A stretch of 64,000 bases of DNA from Candidatus Methanoperedens sp. (GCA_012026795.1 VEPM01000016.1:1-64000); one strand, 5' to 3'. Positions 35,689 to 51,174 are shown, numbered from the stretch's first letter. Notes: generated by a model not told the origin, from the sequence alone. Made by a program: numbers and translations.

Positions 35689-38600
35689 TTATAAAAATGG
35701 TAATATGAGACTTATAATCGATGCAAGCCCAACCACTCGATTGAACCAGACTTCTTTTTTGGGTACTTTTAAATCCTCTAGTTTTTTCAAAATTTCCTTT
35801 GTTGCATCATTATTTTGAGGCAGCTTTGGTATTATCTGAGCCTCAATTTCATTAGCCAACCTTGTTATATCAACATCTAAACGATTAAAACCCTGATGCT
35901 GCCGATTTTCTATGTCATTTAAGCTTAAACCAATTTTGTTAAGATCTGCTTGAATTGTTTTTAGTTTATTCATCTCATTTTGTATCTCATGCAGTGAGGG
36001 AACTATTTCTCCAGAACGAAGTTTTAGCATAGAAATACCATAACTAAGATTATCAAGTTTGAGAAGAACTTTATCCTCCAGATATTCAATCTGCTTATCC
36101 TTTTCTGCTAATTTTTCTTTCATGTTATTTATCTCAACAGAAATAGAAATAACCATAGCTTTCATGGCCATTGCTTTATCTAATAAATCTGCGTTTTCAA
36201 GTTGGCTATATCTACCACTCTCTTTAGGTAAAAGAATATCAAAGGTAGCACGCACATCAGTAATTAGATTGTTCAATACGCGATCGGCTTCGATTGGTTT
36301 CTTAGTATCTCCCAATCCTTCAACATGAACATTGGCACTATTGCTTATCTTTTCAAAGGGAGTTCCTTGAGATACCTCATGGAGTTTCTTTGTTTTTTCT
36401 TCGATTTCCCCAAGTAATTCCTTAATTTTTTTATCAATTATTGGTAGTCCCTTCCTGATCAGCTCCTTTGCTCTAGGTGCTTTTTCTTCTATTGCTTCAA
36501 GAATCTCACAAGCACGGTCGATGTACTGCTTGTATGCTTTTATGTCGGATTTAATTTCATTTGAATCTCGCGCTCTCCGCAGCTCCTTCAGTGCATTTCC
36601 GAGATTTTCCACAGCTTTCAGGAGCTTTTCTTTAATCTTTGAGCCTTCAAGAGCACCTTCTGCTTCTGCAAGATATTTTTCCACCTCAACCTTTGCATCT
36701 CCTTCCTTGAATACTATGGTATAATAAGAAAGATAGAATGGAAGACAAAATCTTGCAGGATTAAGATATTTTGACTCACTTGAGGCTTTTTCAAAAAATT
36801 TCAGGGCTGACTCCAACTCTTTCTTAATTGATTCTTCATTTTTCGCCTGGATTGCCCTGTATATTGATACTTCACCGGATGAATGGTTTGCAGCTATACG
36901 GACATCTTTTTCAGGGTCATGTGTCAGCATTTGAAGCCAATCCCATACCTGTTTTCTATATTCTCCGGGAATCTGGGAATAACAAGAACCGAGGCCACGA
37001 CAAGAATCAATTCGCACAAAGTAGTAATTGTCCTGCCTGAGCCTTTGAAGGTCATCCCATGCCTGTTTTCTGTATTCTTCGGGAATCAGGGAATAACAAG
37101 TACCAAGGGCTTTAGCAGCTCCACCTCGCACAAAAGGATCTTTGTCCTGTGTGAGCCGTTTAATGTCATTCCATGCTTTCTTCCTATATTCATAGGGCGT
37201 ATGAGAATAACAAGAACTAAGTGCTTTAGCGGCATACCCTCGCACCTGGAAGTTACTGTCCTGTGTGAGCCCGATCAGTTCGTCCCATGCCTGTTCTTTA
37301 TATTTTTCTGGAATGCAGGAATAACAAGAACCAAGGGCATCAGCAGCTCTCATGCGCACGCCCTCGTAATTGTCATGGGCGAGCCTCTGGAGGTCTTCCC
37401 ATGCCTGTTTTTTGCATTCTTCGGGAATATAGGAATAACAAGAACCAAGGGCACAAGCTATGCTACTTGGCACATAGTTGTCAATGCTCTGTCTGATAAT
37501 TTCATGATCTGCGAGGGATGCAGCGGCGCCATTTTGCATTGTGTCGTTATTGTCCAGTGTGAACCTATGCAGGTCGTTCCAAGCCTGCTTTCTATATTCT
37601 TCTGGAATGCAGGAATAACAAGAACCAAGGGCATCAGCAGCGCGCATACGCACAAAGTCGTTATCGTCCTGAGTGAGTTCAATAAGTTTGTCCCATGCTT
37701 GTTGTTTGTATTCTTCAGGAATTTGGGGATAACAAGAACCAAGGGCAATAGCGGCCTCACTATACACAAAAGGATCATTGTCATGTGTGAACCTAATCAG
37801 ATCGCCCCATGCCTCCTTTCTGCATTCTTCAGGAATCTGAGAATAACAAGAAACAAGGAACCTACCGGCATCTCTTCGCACAATATCATATTCGTCCTGA
37901 GTTAACCTGTGAAGGTCATTCCATACCTGTTTTTTGTATTCTTCGGGAAGGTGGGAATAACAAAAATCAAAGGATTTTACAGCACCACTTCGAACACCCA
38001 CCATATCGTCCTGAGTAAGCCTTTGAAGGTCATCCAAAGCCTGTATTTTGTATTCTTCGGGAAGGTGGGAATAACAAAAACCAAGGGCATTAGCGACACC
38101 ACTTCTCACCTCGTAGTCATTGTCACGGGTGAGTTTATGCAGGCAGTCCCAAGCTTGCTTTTTGCATTTTTTTGGAATCTGAGAATAACAAAAACCAAGG
38201 GCATTAGCTGCGCCACTTCGCACATCCGGGTAATTGGCCTGCAAGAGCCCTATTAGGTCGTCCCAAGCCTGCTTTTTGTATTTTTCGGGAATGTAGGAAT
38301 AACAAGAACCAAGGGCACGACTAGCGCCACTTCGTACAAAATACTCTTTGTCCCGCGTGAGCCTGTGCAGGTCGTTCCAAGCCTGCTTTCTGTATTCTTC
38401 GGGAAGGCGAGAATAAAAAGTCCCAAGAGCATTAGCGGCACGAGTTCGCACAAAATATTCTTTGTTCTTCGTGAGTCTGTGAATGTCGCCCCAAGCCTGC
38501 TTTCTATATTCTTCGGGAAGGTGAGAACAACAAATACTAAGGGCAATTGTGGCACCCCTTCGCACATCATCACTATTGTCCCTAGTGAGCCGGATCAGGT

Positions 38601-38724
38601 CGTCCCAGGCCTGTTCCTTAGATTTAAGAATAGAAAAGTTGTCATTCAGTTCTTCTATTGCTTTTTTCCGGTCCTTCACATCCCTGCTCTGTGCGAGTCT
38701 ATGAATCTCAGCCTGATCGACCAC
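35689..38724 (-). CDS. Giant HEAT-repeat protein with coiled coil and C-terminal membrane segment (1011 aa)
   Basis: Residues about 15-640 are roughly sixteen HEAT repeats of 39-40 residues, each close to Q(A)WDDLxRLTxDxxxxVRxGAA followed by xALGSCYSxIPEEYKK. The DNA therefore repeats every 117-120 bases. Residues 660-800 are a helical bundle (FEKASSESKYLNPARFCLPF), 800-975 contain coiled coils (MKEKLAEKDKQIEYLEDKVL, LNKIGLSLNDIENRQ), and the last 15 (VVGLASIISLILPFL) form a membrane-like tail. A scaffold or sensor role at the membrane is likely; no catalytic motif is seen. Confidence 0.75.
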   Translation of the reverse strand: MVDQAEIHRLAQSRDVKDRKKAIEELNDNFSILKSKEQAWDDLIRLTRDNSDDVRRGATIALSICCSHLPEEYRKQAWGDIHRLTKNKEYFVRTRAANALGTFYSRLPEEYRKQAWNDLHRLTRDKEYFVRSGASRALGSCYSYIPEKYKKQAWDDLIGLLQANYPDVRSGAANALGFCYSQIPKKCKKQAWDCLHKLTRDNDYEVRSGVANALGFCYSHLPEEYKIQALDDLQRLTQDDMVGVRSGAVKSFDFCYSHLPEEYKKQVWNDLHRLTQDEYDIVRRDAGRFLVSCYSQIPEECRKEAWGDLIRFTHDNDPFVYSEAAIALGSCYPQIPEEYKQQAWDKLIELTQDDNDFVRMRAADALGSCYSCIPEEYRKQAWNDLHRFTLDNNDTMQNGAAASLADHEIIRQSIDNYVPSSIACALGSCYSYIPEECKKQAWEDLQRLAHDNYEGVRMRAADALGSCYSCIPEKYKEQAWDELIGLTQDSNFQVRGYAAKALSSCYSHTPYEYRKKAWNDIKRLTQDKDPFVRGGAAKALGTCYSLIPEEYRKQAWDDLQRLRQDNYYFVRIDSCRGLGSCYSQIPGEYRKQVWDWLQMLTHDPEKDVRIAANHSSGEVSIYRAIQAKNEESIKKELESALKFFEKASSESKYLNPARFCLPFYLSYYTIVFKEGDAKVEVEKYLAEAEGALEGSKIKEKLLKAVENLGNALKELRRARDSNEIKSDIKAYKQYIDRACEILEAIEEKAPRAKELIRKGLPIIDKKIKELLGEIEEKTKKLHEVSQGTPFEKISNSANVHVEGLGDTKKPIEADRVLNNLITDVRATFDILLPKESGRYSQLENADLLDKAMAMKAMVISISVEINNMKEKLAEKDKQIEYLEDKVLLKLDNLSYGISMLKLRSGEIVPSLHEIQNEMNKLKTIQADLNKIGLSLNDIENRQHQGFNRLDVDITRLANEIEAQIIPKLPQNNDATKEILKKLEDLKVPKKEVWFNRVVGLASIISLILPFL

Positions 38725-40996: not shown

Positions 40997-43900
40997 TCAT
41001 GGATCTGCCTGTTTCAAGCTTGTTTCTCCAAGAAGTTCTTTAATCTTCTCATCCAGACGAGTGCCTCTTGTGATAACGATTTCATCGGTTTCTATTGCAA
41101 GCGCGACCTCTTTTACGCTGTGAGTATTCCCTACAAAAAACAGACGACCGTACTTGTTTTCACAGTTTTTTCTTTTCTCGGTCAAGATCTTCGGATCGTT
41201 GTACCCCGAAGTCTGGTACTCAAATGCTACCGGACCGTCTGGCAGCCAGGCAACTACGTCTGCATTGTCATAATGATTAACCTCAACCTTGATGTTTCGT
41301 TCAATGAAATACGCTGCTATCTGAATGACACTCAAATAGTGCTCTTTACTCTGGTTAAGGATGAGTTCATGATTTATATTCTCCTTTTCAATGTATGCAA
41401 AAGCTCTCCCATTTCCGACTGCCCTTTGAGTCCATTCCACCAGCCTCTCTTTACGGAGAATTGTTGTATCGCCATTTATCCAGTCAGACATAATTACACC
41501 CTGCTCTTTTGCAAACGATTCAAGATCAGGGTGAACAAAGGTGTAGGCAACCTGCCGCTTTTGTTTTCCGAACAGGATCTGCGCCTCAAGATCAGATGCT
41601 ACCCTTTGCATATGATAGGTAGTTGCGTAAGGGTATCCCACGGATACAGCGCACATGCCAGGCCTGGAGCAGGATAACAAGAACTGTGCATCGTTATTCG
41701 ATAACTTGAAAAATTTCACCACATCGTCAATGCTTTTTCCGATATTCAGTCCATATACCTCAGAAATAAAGATGTTCGCTCTTAACTCAGGACCTATGCT
41801 TGAAAGATCGGATAGCTGCTGAGACCCGATTATTATCCGAACTCCGAAACTCCCCGCCTGTTTTAGCATTCGCGAGAACTCATCCTGCAACCTCGCGTTC
41901 TTCAGGAACACGCCTGCTTCATCGATCATGATCGTGGTCTTTCTCTTTGAGTTTATGTTGAATCGCAGGGCAAGGATGGCAGTGAGAAGATAATTCATAG
42001 CTTCCTGCGTATCCTGGGGAATGGCTGAGAGGTCTATCACGGTATATTGCTTTGTCAGGTCAACGTTGGTGGGATTTGAAAGCCATCTCAGTGTATTCCT
42101 GAGAGAGGATGTCCTGCTATACACCGCTTCAATGGTAGCATCTGATCTGTATTTCTTTTTATCCCTCTCCCAGATATCATATAGATCAAGAAAGGTCGGT
42201 TGTTTTTCCTGTTTCCATGTTTTCCTGTCTTCTGGAATAATTCCGAACTTTGCATAGAGCTCTACCAGAGTCTCGCCTATGTATGATATCTGTTTGTGGG
42301 TTCTGTCCCCTCCTGTCAACAGATTCAGGAAAAACTTAACGGTATTTAAGTGTTCATAGAACTTCGAGATAGGATCGAACGACACATTCTCATTAAAAAT
42401 AATCTCAAGTGGATTGATATTATAACACGTCTTTCCGTCAGGCTGCCTTCCAAGGTTAATGATCTGGCTCACGTCACTGAAATACTCTGCTACTGCCAGA
42501 TAATTTGTTGTCGAATCTGGCTTGTTTGTTATGTAGATGGCATCGTCCCCGTTCAGGATCGTCCTGATCCCAGTAATTGCCATGGCTGTGGTCTTGCCTG
42601 ACCTTGTCGGACCGATCATCAAAGTATGGCTTGCTCCAAGCTTATCAAGGTCTATTATTATCTCCTGGTTCGTATGAATGTCATTCCCGAAATAAACTCC
42701 ATAAGACGAGACCATATTGTTCGGGCCGTTCACAAGAGGCGTGATCCTTGAAATACCGGAAGTAGGAAGCCAGACTGAGATCTTCTCATCGTAGTAGGGT
42801 AAGAACTGAGTGCATTGTATTGTCTCCAGAATCCTGCCGTTAGGCACGCGGTTCATAATGTTATTCGCACTCAGGATGGCCCGTACTTTGGAGATCCCTG
42901 CAAGCAGTGATGTGTATGAATGAGAAAAGACTGTAATAATGAAGTTAATATCGAACATGCTCTCCTTCCCATCCTTTATCTGGGCATACAATGCCCTCAG
43001 GTCTTCCTGGTCAAGCCCCATATCAAAGCGTGCAGTCTGGTTATTCTGGAGCGATTCCTCATTTCCTTTGATTGTGTTCATCGCTCTTTTGATCTCAGTT
43101 AATGCCCTGGGAGAATCTATCGGGTATATGCTCTGGTCTATCCTGATCACATGCTCTTCGCTTGCGGACAGCCTGTAAATTTGAGTCAGTATTTCAGGTG
43201 AAAGCGTGGGTGGAAATCCGCTTACTCCTCCAACAGGTATCCCCACGATTATGCAGGAAATGTACTCTGTATTGTTGACAAGAAGATGGTCCCTGTTATC
43301 CACGATCGAGCCCTGCATTATCTGGCGAAGCGTATTTTTCCAGATCGCCTTCTCTCCATAGAGCGCAGGAGTCCTGTTAGATTGCACCTGATAGCTTGTA
43401 TTATCATTTGCAAAGATATTGTAGATCTTATTCCTCTGTGTTATTACCGCTGACATGGTGTGGGCTGCCTGTAATCTGTTCAGCACACCGGGCAGCAGAG
43501 TCATCATAAGCGTCTCTATTTCACTGGGATTAGATACCACTCCAATGAAAATTTTTACATCCCAGTTTGTGGTCTTTGGTGTTCTTGAAGATAGATCATG
43601 CAGAGAATATAGCAGAGCCTTTTCATTATGCGACCTTGGTTCGTTTACCTGCTCCATTATCATTCTTTCCACGGGATTCAAATAAGGTATCTGGGAACTT
43701 GCCCGTACTTTTATCAGTGTCTTTGGTTGTATCGAATTCAGGAATCCACTTATCCTTGTTATATTTAGCGCCAGTTCCTCGTCATCAAGCCAGCGAGTAT
43801 CGCATCCCAGGATCACTCCGAATCTGTTGTCCCCGAAGTCTACAACTCCTGTTTTTGAAATATTTTTTATGCTGAATCGATACAGCTGGGAGACCTGTTT

Positions 43901-44224
43901 ATCCGGGCTTGAGATGCTTGAATATCTATCCAAGCCTTTTAACTTCCTGATCTTATGAGCGAAAATTATCTTTGATTCTACCAGTATTTCATGAGTTCTT
44001 GCGTATTTATAATAGAGTCCCCATATTATCAACAGGGCTATGGAATTCAGTACAAGTCCTGATATTCCTTCTCCCGTTCCGATTACTATTGTGGTCAGAA
44101 TAGCGCATACCAGCATCACTTTTACCTGATCCCAGGATAATTCCAGAGGCCCAAGCTGCAGCTTCTCAACAATGAACCTGGGTGGTAAAGGAACGATTAT
44201 TTTATGGGACTGTTGGTCATTCAT
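40997..44224 (-). CDS. virB4: VirB4/TraC-like conjugation ATPase with C-terminal extension (1075 aa)
   Basis: Motor ATPase of a type IV secretion-like apparatus. Two N-terminal membrane segments (VKVMLVCAILTTIVIG, GLVLNSIALLIIWGLYY) precede a large middle domain. Walker A is LMIGPTRSGKTTAMAI, Walker B is TTIMIDEAGVFLK, followed by RIIIGSQQLSDLSSIG. After the motor, residues about 940-1060 form an extra alpha/beta domain (IKVEVNHYDNADVVAWLPDG, PVAFEYQTSGYND) with the D...E-x-(Q) pattern of a nuclease-fold or an inactive relative. It is the last gene of the operon. Confidence 0.8.
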   Translation of the reverse strand: MNDQQSHKIIVPLPPRFIVEKLQLGPLELSWDQVKVMLVCAILTTIVIGTGEGISGLVLNSIALLIIWGLYYKYARTHEILVESKIIFAHKIRKLKGLDRYSSISSPDKQVSQLYRFSIKNISKTGVVDFGDNRFGVILGCDTRWLDDEELALNITRISGFLNSIQPKTLIKVRASSQIPYLNPVERMIMEQVNEPRSHNEKALLYSLHDLSSRTPKTTNWDVKIFIGVVSNPSEIETLMMTLLPGVLNRLQAAHTMSAVITQRNKIYNIFANDNTSYQVQSNRTPALYGEKAIWKNTLRQIMQGSIVDNRDHLLVNNTEYISCIIVGIPVGGVSGFPPTLSPEILTQIYRLSASEEHVIRIDQSIYPIDSPRALTEIKRAMNTIKGNEESLQNNQTARFDMGLDQEDLRALYAQIKDGKESMFDINFIITVFSHSYTSLLAGISKVRAILSANNIMNRVPNGRILETIQCTQFLPYYDEKISVWLPTSGISRITPLVNGPNNMVSSYGVYFGNDIHTNQEIIIDLDKLGASHTLMIGPTRSGKTTAMAITGIRTILNGDDAIYITNKPDSTTNYLAVAEYFSDVSQIINLGRQPDGKTCYNINPLEIIFNENVSFDPISKFYEHLNTVKFFLNLLTGGDRTHKQISYIGETLVELYAKFGIIPEDRKTWKQEKQPTFLDLYDIWERDKKKYRSDATIEAVYSRTSSLRNTLRWLSNPTNVDLTKQYTVIDLSAIPQDTQEAMNYLLTAILALRFNINSKRKTTIMIDEAGVFLKNARLQDEFSRMLKQAGSFGVRIIIGSQQLSDLSSIGPELRANIFISEVYGLNIGKSIDDVVKFFKLSNNDAQFLLSCSRPGMCAVSVGYPYATTYHMQRVASDLEAQILFGKQKRQVAYTFVHPDLESFAKEQGVIMSDWINGDTTILRKERLVEWTQRAVGNGRAFAYIEKENINHELILNQSKEHYLSVIQIAAYFIERNIKVEVNHYDNADVVAWLPDGPVAFEYQTSGYNDPKILTEKRKNCENKYGRLFFVGNTHSVKEVALAIETDEIVITRGTRLDEKIKELLGETSLKQADP

Positions 44225-44251
44225 TCTAATACACTTCCTTTTTTAGTAGGA

Positions 44252-45160
44252 TCACTTTCCCTTTGCAAACAGAAATTTACCGACTATCAGATACTTTATT
44301 TGATTTCCAAAACTGGCTAATAACGGATACAATACGCACGCCACTCCTGCCAATATTGCTCCAGATGAGACTACGTAATAAAGCAATAGTGATTCATTCA
44401 ATGGATATGGCAGTCCGCTCATTAATCCTGTTCCTCCTAACAATATCAGGCACATGAGGAACCTTGAAAACAGCATCACTGCTCCGTATGAGAAAAGCAT
44501 CATTGCAAATTGTCTTGTCCAGGGGAATAAACCCGCAGCTGCTAATAAAAGAAAATATGCAGATATGATCCCCACAACCAGATATCTGTAATAAAATATT
44601 ATCATTAAACTGATGAAACTCAACGCTCTAAAAAGATATGCCAGTGAGTTGTCAGGGGAATATGAAACGAAATTCATTGACTCTAAAAATGCTGATTTTG
44701 CAAGTATTGATTCCAGGGAGAATATCCACTGTAATCCGTACAGGTAGAATGCCCATATCAAAGGAGCGATTATGGCTATCTCGAAATATTTATTTCTCCA
44801 GCTTCCGAAAACATTCCCCATTGTATCGAAACTTGCTGACTCTTTCATCACAGCAATCCCTCCTGCCAGTAGGAATATTGTGTAAAACACGAAATACCAG
44901 AATGCTGTGAAATTCTTCATTCTCTTCACCATTGGATTTGATAAGAAATCGTTGTTATCTGCCATCATGGTTGAAACTGCTGGCTGTACGTTGGAATTAT
45001 TTAAACCCATCATATTATACAAGTTATCTGCCTGCGATTCCAGTATCCTGTCAAATCCTTTTGATATAACGTTAGGTAGAAGCTCTTCCAGGTCGAATGA
45101 AGCTGCTGCTGGCTGAACCAGGATCAGGCACAAAACCATGAATAATATAACTCGTTTCAT
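44252..45160 (-). CDS. Polytopic VirB6/TrbL-like membrane protein (302 aa)
   Basis: A signal peptide (ILFMVLCLILVQPAAAS) is followed by at least six membrane helices, including FWYFVFYTIFLLAGGIAVM, ALSFISLMIIFYYRYLVVG and LLYYVVSSGAILAGVACVL. A Pro/Trp-containing WTRQFAMMLFSYGAVMLFSR matches the central region of VirB6/TrbL-like channel proteins. It overlaps the gene before by ATGA and is 27 bases from virB4. Confidence 0.6.
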   Translation of the reverse strand: MKRVILFMVLCLILVQPAAASFDLEELLPNVISKGFDRILESQADNLYNMMGLNNSNVQPAVSTMMADNNDFLSNPMVKRMKNFTAFWYFVFYTIFLLAGGIAVMKESASFDTMGNVFGSWRNKYFEIAIIAPLIWAFYLYGLQWIFSLESILAKSAFLESMNFVSYSPDNSLAYLFRALSFISLMIIFYYRYLVVGIISAYFLLLAAAGLFPWTRQFAMMLFSYGAVMLFSRFLMCLILLGGTGLMSGLPYPLNESLLLYYVVSSGAILAGVACVLYPLLASFGNQIKYLIVGKFLFAKGK

Positions 45161-46053
45161 TTTTGCCTCGATGATCTATACATTATGTAAATTCCTGACA
45201 AAAATATCAAAACTACATAAATTATGTAACCAATTGCCGGGTTTATGCTTGTGGATTTATTCTGATGATAAACGGCATATTCACTAAAATTGTAATCTGG
45301 CGCTCTTCCGAAAGGTGTCCACAGGAACACTGAAATTATAGTCCCATTATCCATTATCGTGTCGTCGCCCTGATGATATATTCCATTTCCAGTCTTTCTC
45401 CATACCGAGAACGGCGTGACGTTCATGTAGGGAATACCTTTGCTGGTAAACTCGACCATCCCTATGTTCAGTAAATGTTCCACAGAGCCGCTTTGCGTAG
45501 TTATATTGAAAAATATTATCGAATCGTTAAGACCTGTAAAGTGTATCAGGCTCACAGGATGAAAACCGGGGAACCGTTCTATTGTCATGTTTTGTGGGCC
45601 TGGATATGTGAATTGGGGTGGAGAAATCTCCGAATCAATCCAGTCATGAGTTTCTGTGAAATGACCGCTTATCCAGCATCCGTCATTATCGCAGGAGACA
45701 GTATCCCATTTCAGGACCGCATGCAGGGTAGCAATAATGTTTGACCCGACCTGTTTAACAGATATGCTTTGAGTCAGTTCTGTGTTGACTCCAGATGGTT
45801 GGATCCATATCCTGGCATCTCCTCTTACTACTGCATTTGCAACAGGGTCATCGTGGATATAGAGTATGCCGCTGATATTTGCCATGTTCTGGAAGCCCAC
45901 AATGTCAACCCAGCCCTGTAAATGATCCGTAGTGGTCATTTCTATATCCGGACGCAATTCTGATTCGTTGTATAGAGGAAGTCCGGAAACATCAGTAATA
46001 TAGGTATTATTCAATTCTTCCAACACCCCTGCACTTACTGGATGGAATGACAT
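45157..46053 (-). CDS. Exported membrane-anchored protein of the secretion operon (298 aa or longer)
   Basis: A large extracellular beta-rich region ends in one C-terminal membrane helix (INPAIGYIIYVVLIFLSGIY) and a basic tail (RSSRQK). The frame is open upstream of the ATG at 46053 and encodes VLWLVLTAFLFSMSFHPVSA, a good signal peptide; no ATG lies there, so a non-standard start overlapping the pilin gene is likely. It is probably a surface or pore component, unrecognised by family. Confidence 0.55.
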   Translation of the reverse strand: MSFHPVSAGVLEELNNTYITDVSGLPLYNESELRPDIEMTTTDHLQGWVDIVGFQNMANISGILYIHDDPVANAVVRGDARIWIQPSGVNTELTQSISVKQVGSNIIATLHAVLKWDTVSCDNDGCWISGHFTETHDWIDSEISPPQFTYPGPQNMTIERFPGFHPVSLIHFTGLNDSIIFFNITTQSGSVEHLLNIGMVEFTSKGIPYMNVTPFSVWRKTGNGIYHQGDDTIMDNGTIISVFLWTPFGRAPDYNFSEYAVYHQNKSTSINPAIGYIIYVVLIFLSGIYIMYRSSRQK

Positions 46054-46070
46054 TGAAAAAAGGAAGGCAG

Positions 46071-46427
46071 TTAATACCAGCCAAAGAACCGTGTTCCAAT
46101 TTTTATAAGTAATACTATTGCCACCAGTGCATAAAGGACTTGCAATAACGAATTCTGTGCGTGAGACCGTTCCCTTGGGTCTCCCATGGTCGTTGAATGT
46201 GCCATGATCCCGACACCGGCTTTCCCGGTAAATATCGCATAAGCCACTATAGTTACCACCGCGAGGGCACCAAGCACAAAGTTAAGTAATTCCTGTACAT
46301 CCGCTCCCTGCTGTTCAAGCCAGGCGCGTCCCATGCCAGGTTTCATTAAATCGCTGTCGTTACCCGCTGCCGATGCAAGCCCTCCCAGCATCATGAAGAT
46401 TATAATACATATTACATATTTTTGCAT
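46071..46427 (-). CDS. VirB2/TrbC-like pilin candidate (118 aa)
   Basis: A signal peptide (VICIIIFMMLGGLASAAG) is followed by two membrane helices (LLNFVLGALAVVTIVAYAIF, NSLLQVLYALVAIVLLIKIG) with a short polar loop (GIMAHSTTMGDPRERSHAQ). This layout and length are those of VirB2/TrbC pilins. First gene of the operon; upstream A/T-rich region has a TATA box. Confidence 0.6.
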   Translation of the reverse strand: MQKYVICIIIFMMLGGLASAAGNDSDLMKPGMGRAWLEQQGADVQELLNFVLGALAVVTIVAYAIFTGKAGVGIMAHSTTMGDPRERSHAQNSLLQVLYALVAIVLLIKIGTRFFGWY

Positions 46428-46521
46428 AAAACTATGTAATTACTTAATAGTTTATATATTTTGCTTTAAACTTGCATAAATAAGAAGATTTATATAAGTT
46501 CAGGCAAAATATACCGTAAAC
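46428..46521. promoter_or_regulatory. Divergent promoters for secretion operon and AbrB-like gene
   Basis: For the minus genes, AAAATATATAAACTATTAA (about 46450-46468) is a TATA box. For the plus gene, GATTTATATAAG (about 46487-46498) lies some 25 bases before the ATG. The AbrB-like protein encoded next could control both. Confidence 0.55.
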
Positions 46522-46719
46522 ATGGCTAAAGATGAAAAAAACTCAAAAGACGATATCAAATATACCTTCGCGAAATACTACAGGAAACCTAACGGAAGCG
46601 CGAGCATCAATCTGCCTGTAGGATTCGATGTCGATCTTGCCCAGGGTGAGGAGCTTGCTGCTAAATGGGATGGTAAAACGATTGTCCTTATTCCGCTTAA
46701 GAAGGTGAACTTTGAATAA
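46522..46719 (+). CDS. AbrB/SpoVT-like small protein (65 aa)
   Basis: YRKPNGSASINLPVGFDVDL-AQGEELAAKWDGKTIVLIPL is the swapped-hairpin (AbrB) pattern: a strand, LP turn, then a strand ending in hydrophobics. Divergent from the secretion operon and overlapping the lipoprotein gene by 8 bases, it may regulate both. Confidence 0.55.
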   Translation: MAKDEKNSKDDIKYTFAKYYRKPNGSASINLPVGFDVDLAQGEELAAKWDGKTIVLIPLKKVNFE

Positions 46720-47041
46720 ATTTAAATTATTTGTAGCTGCGATGCTGCTTGGTTCCCTGTCCTCAGGGTGTGTAAGTGAGAATACATATATTGGCACCTA
46801 CAAGCTTGATAAGACACCTTCTAAGACACTTGAGATCAGAGAAGATGGGACTTATCTCCTCATCCCGACAGATACTAAATTTACTCAAAAGGGTGTATAT
46901 GCTAAACGCGGTTCTACGATAGAGGTAACCAATGCGTTAGGATTTACAAGCGTAATAAATATCACGGATTATGGTCTTCTTGAAGACAATGGTGACAGGT
47001 GGATAAAAGTTACGCAGAAAAATAAATTAAATGAGGTTTAA
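46712..47041 (+). CDS. Small lipoprotein (109 aa)
   Basis: The leader FVAAMLLGSLSSGCVSE has a lipobox Cys. The mature part (GTYKLDKTPSKTLEIREDGT, ATTYLLIPTD-like strands) reads as a small beta-barrel. Next to conjugation genes, it may be a surface-exclusion or entry-like protein; that is speculative. Confidence 0.55.
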   Translation: MNKFKLFVAAMLLGSLSSGCVSENTYIGTYKLDKTPSKTLEIREDGTYLLIPTDTKFTQKGVYAKRGSTIEVTNALGFTSVINITDYGLLEDNGDRWIKVTQKNKLNEV

Positions 47042-48033: not shown

Positions 48034-48252
48034 GTGGATTCGATAAACGGATATGAATCAAAGACTAGCAGCATGACTCCTAAAGTGCAGTCCGGTCAGG
48101 ACATCATGGACAAATATACAAAAACCAATGCTGAGAGATCTGGAATTGTTAAAAGAAAAGTCCCTGCGCGTGTTCAAATAAAAAGAAGTCCTATATTTTT
48201 TGTAAATTTAAACCAAAACTCCCATGAAGAAAGAGAGCGTTTCTTTACTTAA
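48034..48252 (+). CDS. Possible small basic protein (72 aa, GTG start)
   Basis: A good Shine-Dalgarno (AGAGGAGG) sits ahead of the GTG at 48034. The product (GYESKTSSMTPKVQSGQDIM, RKVPARVQIKRSPIFFV) is basic and unstructured-looking; no family. It may be the tail of a dead operon with the VWA gene. Confidence 0.35.
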   Translation: MDSINGYESKTSSMTPKVQSGQDIMDKYTKTNAERSGIVKRKVPARVQIKRSPIFFVNLNQNSHEERERFFT

Positions 48253-48342
48253 AACAATGTGAGTAGAATCTGGCTGTCACTTTATACCTGCATCTAAAAA
48301 GGATCGTAGCAAGAAAAGTACGGACTACAATAGAGGAAATGC

Positions 48343-48834
48343 ATGAACGATAAAATCACTTTTACTACTACTCGAAGAAGACTCACTGAAATTCTAATGG
48401 GTCTGGTCTCATTATTTTTTGCTTCAGGAGCTATAGCTACAATATTAAAATATTTATGGCCGCAAACAGCAAAAGCTACTTTCAGTGAAGTAAAAATAGC
48501 TTTAGTGGATGAGGTTCCAACCGGAACTGCAAAAAAGTTTATGTTCAACGGCAAAGCGGCCGTCCTTTTAAAGATGCCTGCTGGCTTCAGAGCATTCGGA
48601 GCAGTATGCACGCACCTGGGGTGCATCGCTTACTGGAAGCCTGAAGAAAATGATATCTTTTGTCCTTGCCACTTAGGTAGGTTTGATCCCAACACAGGGG
48701 CAGTGATCTCAGGACCACCTCCATCTCCTTTGCCTGCTATTGATATTGATGTAAAAGAGGGGGCAGTGTATGCTCTCAAGTGGAATGATCCCGATTATGT
48801 GAGAACCATCTCATTCTATGCTGGGGCAGCATGA
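48343..48834 (+). CDS. Rieske [2Fe-2S] protein with Tat-type anchor (163 aa)
   Basis: The Rieske ligand boxes are VCTHLGCIAY (about residue 91) and CPCHLGRFDPNTG (about residue 108), then SGPPPSPL. The N-terminus has the twin arginine TTRRRLTEILMG followed by a hydrophobic stretch (LVSLFFASGAIATIL), so it is exported folded and anchored outside the cell. The next gene overlaps by ATGA. It is likely a quinol-linked electron carrier; no cytochrome b is adjacent. Confidence 0.92.
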   Translation: MNDKITFTTTRRRLTEILMGLVSLFFASGAIATILKYLWPQTAKATFSEVKIALVDEVPTGTAKKFMFNGKAAVLLKMPAGFRAFGAVCTHLGCIAYWKPEENDIFCPCHLGRFDPNTGAVISGPPPSPLPAIDIDVKEGAVYALKWNDPDYVRTISFYAGAA

Positions 48835-49658
48835 GGCGATATGTGAAAAATGAAATATCCAGGCGAGAATTTACTGAAATTGGATGTAAAATAATCATAG
48901 GAGCCACGGCTAGTATAGTTATCATCAAATCCCTTGTTAAAAACAGCATTGCTGCAGTTGACTTGCCTGATATAGAAAATTATGATTGGAATGAACATTA
49001 CTGGAGCTTTGTGGTTGACAGCTATAAATGCATCGGCTGCGGCAGGTGTGCTTATGCATGCAAACTTGAAAACCACGTTCCCTTTGATGAACCCTGGTAT
49101 AGAACATGGGTTGAAAGATATCGTTTTAAGAAAGATGGAGAAACTAAAATTGATTCTCCGAATGGAGGTGTGGATGGATTTAATGATGATATTCCTGCTG
49201 AAGATATCAAAAAGGCATTTTATTTCCCCAAGTTATGTAATCATTGCGATAATCCACCATGCGTCCAGGTCTGTCCAGTAGGTGCCACGTATTTGACAAA
49301 AGATGGGGTTGTTCTTGTGGATTATGATTACTGTATTGGGTGCAGGTATTGCATAATGGCATGCCCATATGGTGCCAGATACTTTATGTCGGAAGGGAGC
49401 CTTCACTACAAACCTGATCCAAATTTGGGAGGCGGTGTTGCTGATAAATGTACCTGGTGCTATCACAGGATTACCAGGGGTCTTTTGCCAGCTTGTGTCC
49501 AGGCATGTCCTGTCGGAGCCAGAGTATTCGGAGACCTGAAAGACCCTGATAGTGCAGTCAATAAAATACTAGATAAAGAGAGGATTAATGTTCTCAAACC
49601 TGATCTGGGAACAAAACCAAAGGTATATTATGTGGGATTGGACCGGGAAGTGAGGTGA
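48831..49658 (+). CDS. Tat-exported 4x[4Fe-4S] ferredoxin subunit, PsrB/NrfC/HybA type (275 aa)
   Basis: The Tat signal ISRREFTEIGCKIIIGATAS is followed by four Cys clusters: CIGCGRCAYACK, CNHCDNPPCVQVCP, CIGCRYCIMACP and CTWCYH...CVQACP. Such subunits pass electrons between a catalytic subunit and a membrane quinol protein. It is translationally coupled to the Rieske gene. The operon continues no further because an IS701 element begins 60 bases later; an NrfD-like partner may have been displaced. Confidence 0.9.
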   Translation: MRRYVKNEISRREFTEIGCKIIIGATASIVIIKSLVKNSIAAVDLPDIENYDWNEHYWSFVVDSYKCIGCGRCAYACKLENHVPFDEPWYRTWVERYRFKKDGETKIDSPNGGVDGFNDDIPAEDIKKAFYFPKLCNHCDNPPCVQVCPVGATYLTKDGVVLVDYDYCIGCRYCIMACPYGARYFMSEGSLHYKPDPNLGGGVADKCTWCYHRITRGLLPACVQACPVGARVFGDLKDPDSAVNKILDKERINVLKPDLGTKPKVYYVGLDREVR

Positions 49659-49717: not shown

Positions 49718-51174
49718 TTAACTTGACATTGTCAGATTATCCCCCTCTTTTATGATGCGATAATTTAGCTGAGTACCGTGCTTTATGTTTTTTCTTTATC
49801 AATTTTAAGATTTCTTTATCAGTGACCTTTCTTTTAGGCATAATTACCTCAAAAATCTCCCTCACATCACTAATAGTAAGCAGTGATGCTTTCGATTTCC
49901 ATTTATCCTGCATCTCAAGAAGAAACAGCATTGCCATGAAAACCATAGCTACGTGGTGATTCCAGCCGAGGTAACCTCTTATTTCATAATCGGCTAAACC
50001 TACCTCCCCTTTAGCATCCTCAATAGCACGCTCGATCCAATAACGGCTGCAAGACATCTTTCCAATCTTATCAATGCTTGTATCGGCCGGAGTATTTGAG
50101 AACTGGTATTTTGTCTCAGTCTCACCCTCATTTCTTCGAATAATAAGCCAGCACTCCTCACCTGGCAATTTATCCTTGACTGGAAAAATCCGCAGATACG
50201 CAAGCTTGCACCACATTTCTTTTCGCTCAGAATCCCGTAGAAATATCCTATGCCATTGTGAAGAATCTAACTTGTTTGCTAACTTATCTACTCGTATCGG
50301 GTTATTATCAAGAACTTTTTCGATTGTTGGATTCCGTCCTCGAATTCCATTTTTCGGTGGTATCCCTACATCAGGTTTGTTCAACCAGACTCTTGTATCA
50401 CATGGTATATCAGCAATGTAAACAATTCTCTCTTTTTCAAGTTCAGCAAGAAACCATGGTTGCTGCCCATAAAAAGAATCCATCCCAATCCAACCAAATG
50501 GGAGGTCTCGTCTTTTGGCACCAAGTATCATCTCAAGCCCAAGCTCAGCTTTAGTTTTAAAAACCAGATCTTCCGGGATACCACATTTCTTTTTGCGTTC
50601 AATATCGTCTATCCATTCCTGAGATATGTAAAGACGTTTGTCGATTAATGTCCTCTTGTTATCGTTTACATAACCCAGGAAAACTCCTACCTGGCAGTTT
50701 TCTATTTTTCCAAGCCGTCCACAATATTGCCTTTGCACTCCTGCTGAACTACTGCCTTGTTTTGGAAATCCTGATTCGTCTAACTGAAGGGAGCCATTTT
50801 CTTTATCACCTATCAGTTCAACTAAGCGATCCTGAATGTCATGTATGAGACCTTGCTCATCCCACAGTGAGTCGGATATAAAGTGCTGAAGTGATTGATT
50901 ATTGCAGTTCGGAACAGTCTTTGCTATTTCAGTCATAGTCCCCCTTTTTTGTACGGTCAAGCATCCATAGAGATATTTTTTGGATTGCTCTATAACTTTA
51001 CGTGTCCTGGTCTTAAAACGTTGTATGAAATGGTTATGGTAGGTCTTTAATTCGGTTCTTGACCGTATCAGATCCTTTCTTATAAGTTTGAAAAATCTCT
51101 TGATATGTACTCCCCATATTTAAGGAAGCAAACAAAATATAATAGGGTAGCTAATGTGACAATGTCAAGTTAAA
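49718..51174 (-). mobile_element. IS701-family insertion sequence (about 1.46 kb)
   Basis: Ends are inverted repeats: TTAACTTGACATTGTCA at about 49718-49735 and its complement at 51157-51174. It contains a single full transposase gene. The IR core TTGACATTGTCA is itself a perfect palindrome. A target duplication was not clear by eye. Confidence 0.8.
49737..50960 (-). CDS. IS701-type DDE transposase (407 aa)
   Basis: DDE_5-fold transposase. The acidic residues are LQLDESGFPKQGSSSAGVQR (Asp), WIGMDSFYGQ (Asp) and CSRYWIERAIEDAKGEVGLA (Glu). The preceding QYCGRLGKIENCQVGVFLGY is typical of this family. No internal stop, so the element is potentially active. It inserted directly downstream of the ferredoxin operon. 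Confidence 0.88.
   Translation of the reverse strand: MTVQKRGTMTEIAKTVPNCNNQSLQHFISDSLWDEQGLIHDIQDRLVELIGDKENGSLQLDESGFPKQGSSSAGVQRQYCGRLGKIENCQVGVFLGYVNDNKRTLIDKRLYISQEWIDDIERKKKCGIPEDLVFKTKAELGLEMILGAKRRDLPFGWIGMDSFYGQQPWFLAELEKERIVYIADIPCDTRVWLNKPDVGIPPKNGIRGRNPTIEKVLDNNPIRVDKLANKLDSSQWHRIFLRDSERKEMWCKLAYLRIFPVKDKLPGEECWLIIRRNEGETETKYQFSNTPADTSIDKIGKMSCSRYWIERAIEDAKGEVGLADYEIRGYLGWNHHVAMVFMAMLFLLEMQDKWKSKASLLTISDVREIFEVIMPKRKVTDKEILKLIKKKHKARYSAKLSHHKRGG

Follow-up and report, generated by a model that had tools for sequence, protein, structure and literature searches.

What do four close-packed genes resembling parts of a type IV secretion system (T4SS) do in Candidatus Methanoperedens, and what is the long C-terminal tail on the VirB4-like ATPase that one of them encodes? 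We analysed these genes in a window of 64 kb, the first part of an 88-kb contig from a 3.59-Mb Ca. Methanoperedens genome whose close relatives are METP1, BLZ2, FeB_1 and MnB_21. The explanation we lean towards, at slightly better than even chances, is that they form a cell-resident copy of a virus-shared, minimal DNA transporter of T4SS type, similar to Ced and Ted, whose motor has its own, probably working, nuclease.

Composition of the module

The four ORFs lie on the minus strand and span 40997-46427; ORF calls confirmed the close-coupled order (pilin-like, exported, VirB6-like, VirB4-like) of the original prediction. The pilin-like protein (46071..46427, 118 aa) has a signal peptide and two hydrophobic helices, and its size and hydrophobic pattern are right for a VirB2-type pilin. 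It scored under the cut-off against both the Mbov_0395 model (4.5e-6; 26 bits against a cut-off of 40) and Pfam T4SS_pilin (5.5e-4). The next gene (45157..46053, 298 aa as called) encodes an exported surface protein anchored by a single C-terminal TM segment. Ahead of the called start the reading frame continues through a clear signal peptide (...VLWLVLTAFLFSMSFHPVSAG), so the gene probably begins further upstream, within the last part of the pilin gene. The third protein (44252..45160, 302 aa) is a polytopic membrane protein for which HMM searches returned zero matches and hhalign against three Gram-positive candidates gave nothing. When its model was searched against the PDB with Foldseek, TrwI/VirB6 of R388 came top (prob 0.57, E about 0.5), and nearly all remaining matches had a prob below 0.25. 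Topology, position and this weak structural match to TrwI hint at a VirB6 identity.

The last gene (40997..44224) encodes the VirB4-like ATPase of 1075 aa. Two N-terminal TM segments (residues 33-71, 44012..44128) occupy a VirB3/PrgI-like position, a Walker A motif is found at residues 538-545 (42590..42613), and a nuclease-like tail follows at the C-terminus. We obtained NCBIfam matches to VirB4_plasma (1.6e-26), CD1110 (1e-23) and CedB (5e-15), all under the curated cut-offs; a viral homologue reached 2.3e-38 against VirB4_plasma, also below the equivalog cut-off. By sequence, the protein can be placed among T4SS ATPases at family level only. The predicted T4SS-like character of the operon thus holds at this level, with VirB4 and pilin matching T4SS families below curated cut-offs.

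Two divergent plus-strand genes, overlooked in the original prediction, also belong to the module (46522-47041). One encodes a 65-aa candidate regulator (46522..46719), AbrB-like by eye and with no significant Pfam match, and the other a 109-aa lipoprotein with the lipobox LSSGC (46712..47041), which G438, G058 and G459 likewise keep with the module. The intergenic region between the divergent genes holds a 15-nt imperfect inverted repeat (46455..46513, no strand assigned), a candidate operator that could be due to chance. Further out, the window encodes a 1011-aa HEAT-repeat protein with weak matches to HEAT-type PADLOC models (35689-38724), and close to the operon there is an IS-type transposase-like ORF (49737-50960).

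Profile searches for a relaxase (PF03432) or a coupling protein on the contig were empty, as predicted. In genome-wide profile searches of the host genome no VirD4 scored over the cut-off, and none was found on the viral contig G438; a weak PF02534 match over the cut-off was present on a 76-kb contig that also bears the divergent G015 copy of the module. No PF03432 relaxase was detected in 10 genomes or records, the search covering this one MOB family. As far as tested, and within the families searched, the module lacks the VirD4 and relaxase of a conjugative-type T4SS.

A nuclease-like domain fused to VirB4

The original prediction described about 130 extra residues on VirB4. The tail is indeed an added domain, but it is larger: the extension past the VirB4 fold covers ~185 aa from residue ~890 (residues ~890-1075, 41000..41557), with a nuclease-like core at ~958-1065 (41030..41353). 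In an 834-aa homologue on L162, the match runs to the end of the VirB4_plasma model (893/894) by residue 624, and 210 aa remain beyond it. Bacterial and haloarchaeal VirB4s are without the tail, and plasmid VirB4s likewise stop short of it. Among 393 Halobacteriota genomes, VirB4s from outside the order matched in the ATPase and did not reach the tail, except in G135. Because homologous VirB4s elsewhere and the model itself end before the tail, we ruled out that it is an ordinary VirB4 C-terminus, the finding that the original prediction had named as speaking against it. The search for the fused form, also proposed there, found the fusion in each of the 28 homologues aligned, even where identity falls to ~22-30%. 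This constancy, together with the purifying selection seen in dN/dS values of 0.02-0.07 (in comparisons with computable dS only), shows that the tail is not there by chance.

We next turned to the fold. AlphaFold2 models of eight sequences gave a tail core with pLDDT 82-91 and the order H-E-E-E-H-E-H-E-H, which is that of the PD-(D/E)XK core with extra elements following. PDB matches were mostly PD-(D/E)XK, restriction-endonuclease-like proteins (Cdn1, Can2, PspGI, Hjc, DdmD, R2 endonuclease, BspD6I, MspJI, HincII), several with prob 0.9-1.0 and at Foldseek E-values of 1e-3 to 1e-1, consistent over most matches; none reached E 0.001. A viral structure library also returned many nucleases. The predicted PD-(D/E)XK-like core topology was in this way recovered. 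The tail matched none of the Pfam and PHROGs families. Kinship to ERCC4-like phage proteins (L057-L059) was considered and rejected: the similarity covers a 39-residue stretch only and was taken as chance or fold-level.

The DxxAW...VAFEYQ pattern noticed originally is present as D989-VVAW ... VAF-E1002-Y-Q1004, with Gln (Q1004) in the motif III Lys slot. Over residues 935-1065, the only columns conserved at 92% or more in the 28 tails are H962, D989, E1002, Y1003, K1017, R1053 and G1054, four of the seven at catalytic positions. D989, at the start of strand 2, and E1002, in strand 3, correspond to the motif II Asp and motif III Glu and are invariant (28/28 each). K1017, in the helix that follows, is found in 26/28 and is replaced by Gln in two viral proteins (G497, G510). 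At position 1004 the Methanoperedens clade has Gln and most others have Glu; the canonical Lys is absent (Q/E/A). As in known families, the catalytic Lys seems to have shifted to the helix that follows (K1017). Nucleases in which the motif III Lys has migrated to the helix of motif IV have been described, and the ExQ form occurs in CoiA and YhgA (PMC1913061). One ExQ enzyme, RpnA, has endonuclease activity, and its D63A, E82A and Q84K variants lose all three in vivo phenotypes tested (PMC5350276). Compared with these and the other ExQ or migrated-Lys nucleases (CoiA, YhgA/RpnA, DUF506, DUF790; PMC1913061, PMC5350276), the tail is without a family-level Pfam or PHROGs match and is fused to VirB4, and most of its relatives are ExE. 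The conservation of D989, E1002 and K1017, the migrated-Lys precedent and the activity of RpnA together make a nuclease that is active, or was so until recently, more likely than a dead fold.

Two further observations concern the tail and its surroundings. Tail-domain fragments without the ATPase were found at L140:7790-8197, L061:2210-2551 and L148:854-1201, some at contig ends and some decayed. Many viral and Methanosarcinales VirB4s (L161-L166, L137, L141, L145) carry a short acidic peptide at their C-terminus, in which an (I/L)(G/E)AL or EA ending recurs, possibly a docking motif; the peptide is absent from VirB4s of the Methanoperedens clade.

Copies in Methanoperedens and on tailed-virus contigs

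The conserved block has six genes (pilin, exported protein, VirB6-like, VirB4, 65-aa protein and 109-aa lipoprotein), some of the small ones being uncalled in some copies. We found eight full copies in 7 of 31 Methanoperedens genomes, two of them in BLZ2, with VirB4 82-94% identical to that of the window. G015 has a divergent copy (31%). Past about 40.7-47.1 kb the flanks are mostly unrelated between Methanoperedens copies. Only fragmented VirB4 remains were seen in G014 (L031, L032) and G021 (L065), so the module also decays. On another contig of the host genome, a locus (L112, G000:C39) carries 81-88% similar copies of the module flanks (window:39694-40312 and 48168-48883), about 2.2 kb apart and with the module missing between them.

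The original prediction also allowed that the operon is part of a larger element. This was not seen for the window copy: neither its 88-kb contig nor the sampled flanks of the other Methanoperedens copies contain viral genes, the sole near exception being a weak radical-SAM-like match in MnB_21. We therefore rejected an integrated virus in Methanoperedens. Related copies do occur on tailed-virus contigs.

These viral copies came from an IMG/VR profile search, plus one MAG contig (G497:C111), and counterparts of the module were located on seven contigs (G438, G497, G510, G511, G513, G514, G515). G438 (60 kb; L149-L152) encodes a terminase large subunit, capsid, tape measure, head-morphogenesis protein and an archaeal MCM. 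On G497:C111 (60 kb; L153, L145, L154, L155), terS, terL, a putative portal and head morphogenesis genes are followed by the module and then by capsid-region genes and tape measure. The five other contigs have terminase, capsid, portal or tape-measure genes (capsid and terS in G510), and the archaeal MCM recurs in G497 and G510. No hallmark genes were found on G512, a 21-kb fragment. The module is positioned between portal/head and capsid/tail genes in G497, G511, G513 and G515, and elsewhere in G438, G510 and G514. Assembly chimeras are unlikely because the same arrangement recurs in separate assemblies (IMG/VR metagenomes and a MAG), four contigs having the same neighbours.

In the viral counterparts the exported protein has 318-1154 aa against 298 aa in Methanoperedens, and 477-1154 aa on most viral contigs (L161:1607-5071, L165:3616-7053, L145:2283-4166). 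Similarity to other viral beta-helix-like proteins suggests that these long forms include an adhesin or glycan-binding part. Together with the module, viral copies and G135 encode a conserved hydrophobic protein of ~130 aa (L145:1310-1702, L162:3181-3528, L164:1055-1468, L060:1394-1693, G438:2142-2543). In G015, G058, G459, G492 and the viral contigs, the TM/NTD part at the N-terminus of VirB4 has a gene of its own.

A VirB4 tree (LG+C20, PMSF) mixed viral and chromosomal copies, pairing G058 with V438, G492 with V511, and G496 with V512/V513/V515. Some MAG copies (G058, G496) could themselves be viral, since they are on short contigs. The eight Methanoperedens copies formed one clade on a long stem. 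Our best reading is that the module family is common to tailed viruses and Methanosarcinales chromosomes, with the Methanoperedens copies being a long-resident cellular clade.

A candidate DNA transporter and its alternatives

The closest parallels are Ced of Sulfolobales and Ted of Thermoproteales, which share the minimal archaeal set of VirB2-like pilin, VirB6-like channel and VirB4-like motor (PMC9905601, PMC11868833). This composition is present here, with pilin and VirB6 identities weakly supported. Shared features are the lack of a relaxase and a VirB4 NTD that is split or fused; CedB and CedD each match parts of the VirB4 N-terminal domain (PMC11868833), so the split and fused forms seen here are comparable to them. 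VirD4 is not required in Ced and Ted. Membership of Ced or Ted is not shown by sequence, the CedB match reaching 55 of the 700 bits of the equivalog. The module differs in adding the PD-(D/E)XK tail, the exported anchored protein and the lipoprotein, in also occurring in tailed viruses and in belonging to a different archaeal phylum. The closest HMM relatives belong to FATA-type conjugation of Gram-positives and Mycoplasma (CD1110/Mbov_0397 VirB4, Mbov_0395 pilin), and Gram-positive operons likewise place a small PrgI/VirB3-like TM part immediately before VirB4; the module, however, has no adjoining VirD4, relaxase or peptidoglycan hydrolase, and the bacterial VirB4s have no tail. HerA-NurA end-resection machines similarly pair a hexameric HerA/VirB4-type motor with a nuclease. 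That nuclease is of another fold, unfused and soluble, and there is no pilin or channel.

The layout of pilin, VirB6-type channel and VirB4-type motor, with an anchored surface protein and a lipoprotein, would allow the VirB4 ATPase ring to drive DNA through the channel and pilus. The fused domain, probably a metal-dependent nuclease with D989, E1002 and K1017 from the next helix, would nick DNA or degrade one strand on the cytoplasmic side. Strand processing, for which neither a relaxase nor a NurA-like partner is encoded alongside, would be provided by the motor itself. VirB4-like motors serve import in Ced (PMC11868833); by analogy, in an importer the tail may be the recipient-side strand processor, while an exporter would use it in place of the missing relaxase. 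What the data show directly is the gene set, the VirB4 family, the predicted fold, the conserved active-site pattern and the link to viruses; that DNA is the substrate, that the tail is catalytic and which way transport runs are inferred.

The main rival, which we regard as improbable, is exclusion or defence: the surface protein, lipoprotein and VirB4-nuclease would recognise and destroy incoming DNA, in superinfection exclusion by viruses and in antiviral defence on chromosomes. It would fit the occurrence in viruses and as patchy chromosomal islands, the nuclease fused to a HerA/VirB4 motor, the retained lipoprotein and the matches of the ATPase to defence HerA/Mad8 models, which belong to the same P-loop family. 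However, PADLOC recognises the ATPase domain only, and a pure nuclease defence has no need of a pilin and a VirB6-like channel. A pilus or adhesin apparatus with no role in DNA transport would fit the resemblance of the viral surface protein to beta-helix-type viral proteins, but a pure adhesin would hardly account for a conserved nuclease domain on VirB4, and we consider this very unlikely.

The remaining alternatives concern the tail and the missing partners. The original prediction suggested that the tail may be an inactive, DNA-binding nuclease fold; on this reading, a catalytically dead PD-(D/E)XK domain would serve only to bind or recruit DNA in place of a coupling protein. The replacement of the motif III Lys by Gln (or Glu/Ala) and the absence of a nearby VirD4 are in line with this. 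Yet D and E have been kept in 28/28 and K1017 in 26/28 tails while most of the remaining tail diverged, loss being expected in a dead domain, and RpnA is active in ExQ form (PMC5350276); we judge an inactive fold unlikely. Still less probably, the operon is one piece of an ordinary conjugative element that has its relaxase and VirD4 elsewhere. The relaxase search was confined to PF03432 among the MOB families, and the PF02534 match on the G015 copy's contig points in this direction; the Methanoperedens-clade block, on the other hand, has only six genes with mostly unrelated flanks, PF03432 was missing from all 10 genomes or records, and the host genome had no VirD4 over cut-off.

All components of the module are of kinds already known. 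In the searchable literature, which excludes most subscription literature, we found no description of the VirB4-nuclease fusion, of its retention chiefly within a single archaeal order or of its presence in tailed viruses, and nothing relevant on T4SS encoded by viruses of archaea. A single purified domain would suffice to test the predicted active site. If true, the fusion would give relaxase-less archaeal T4SS derivatives a built-in answer to how strands are made or processed, raised as an open question for such systems (PMC9905601), Ced/Ted-like systems would extend to methane-cycling Halobacteriota, and tailed viruses would be seen to be capable of carrying a conjugation-type apparatus, which would blur the boundary between virus and conjugative element. 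More tentatively, a tailed-virus lineage of Methanosarcinales may pass its own or host DNA from cell to cell with a complete nuclease-fused conjugation-type machine, in several cases encoded in the virion-morphogenesis cluster, and Methanoperedens and relatives may have co-opted this machine for chromosomal DNA exchange.
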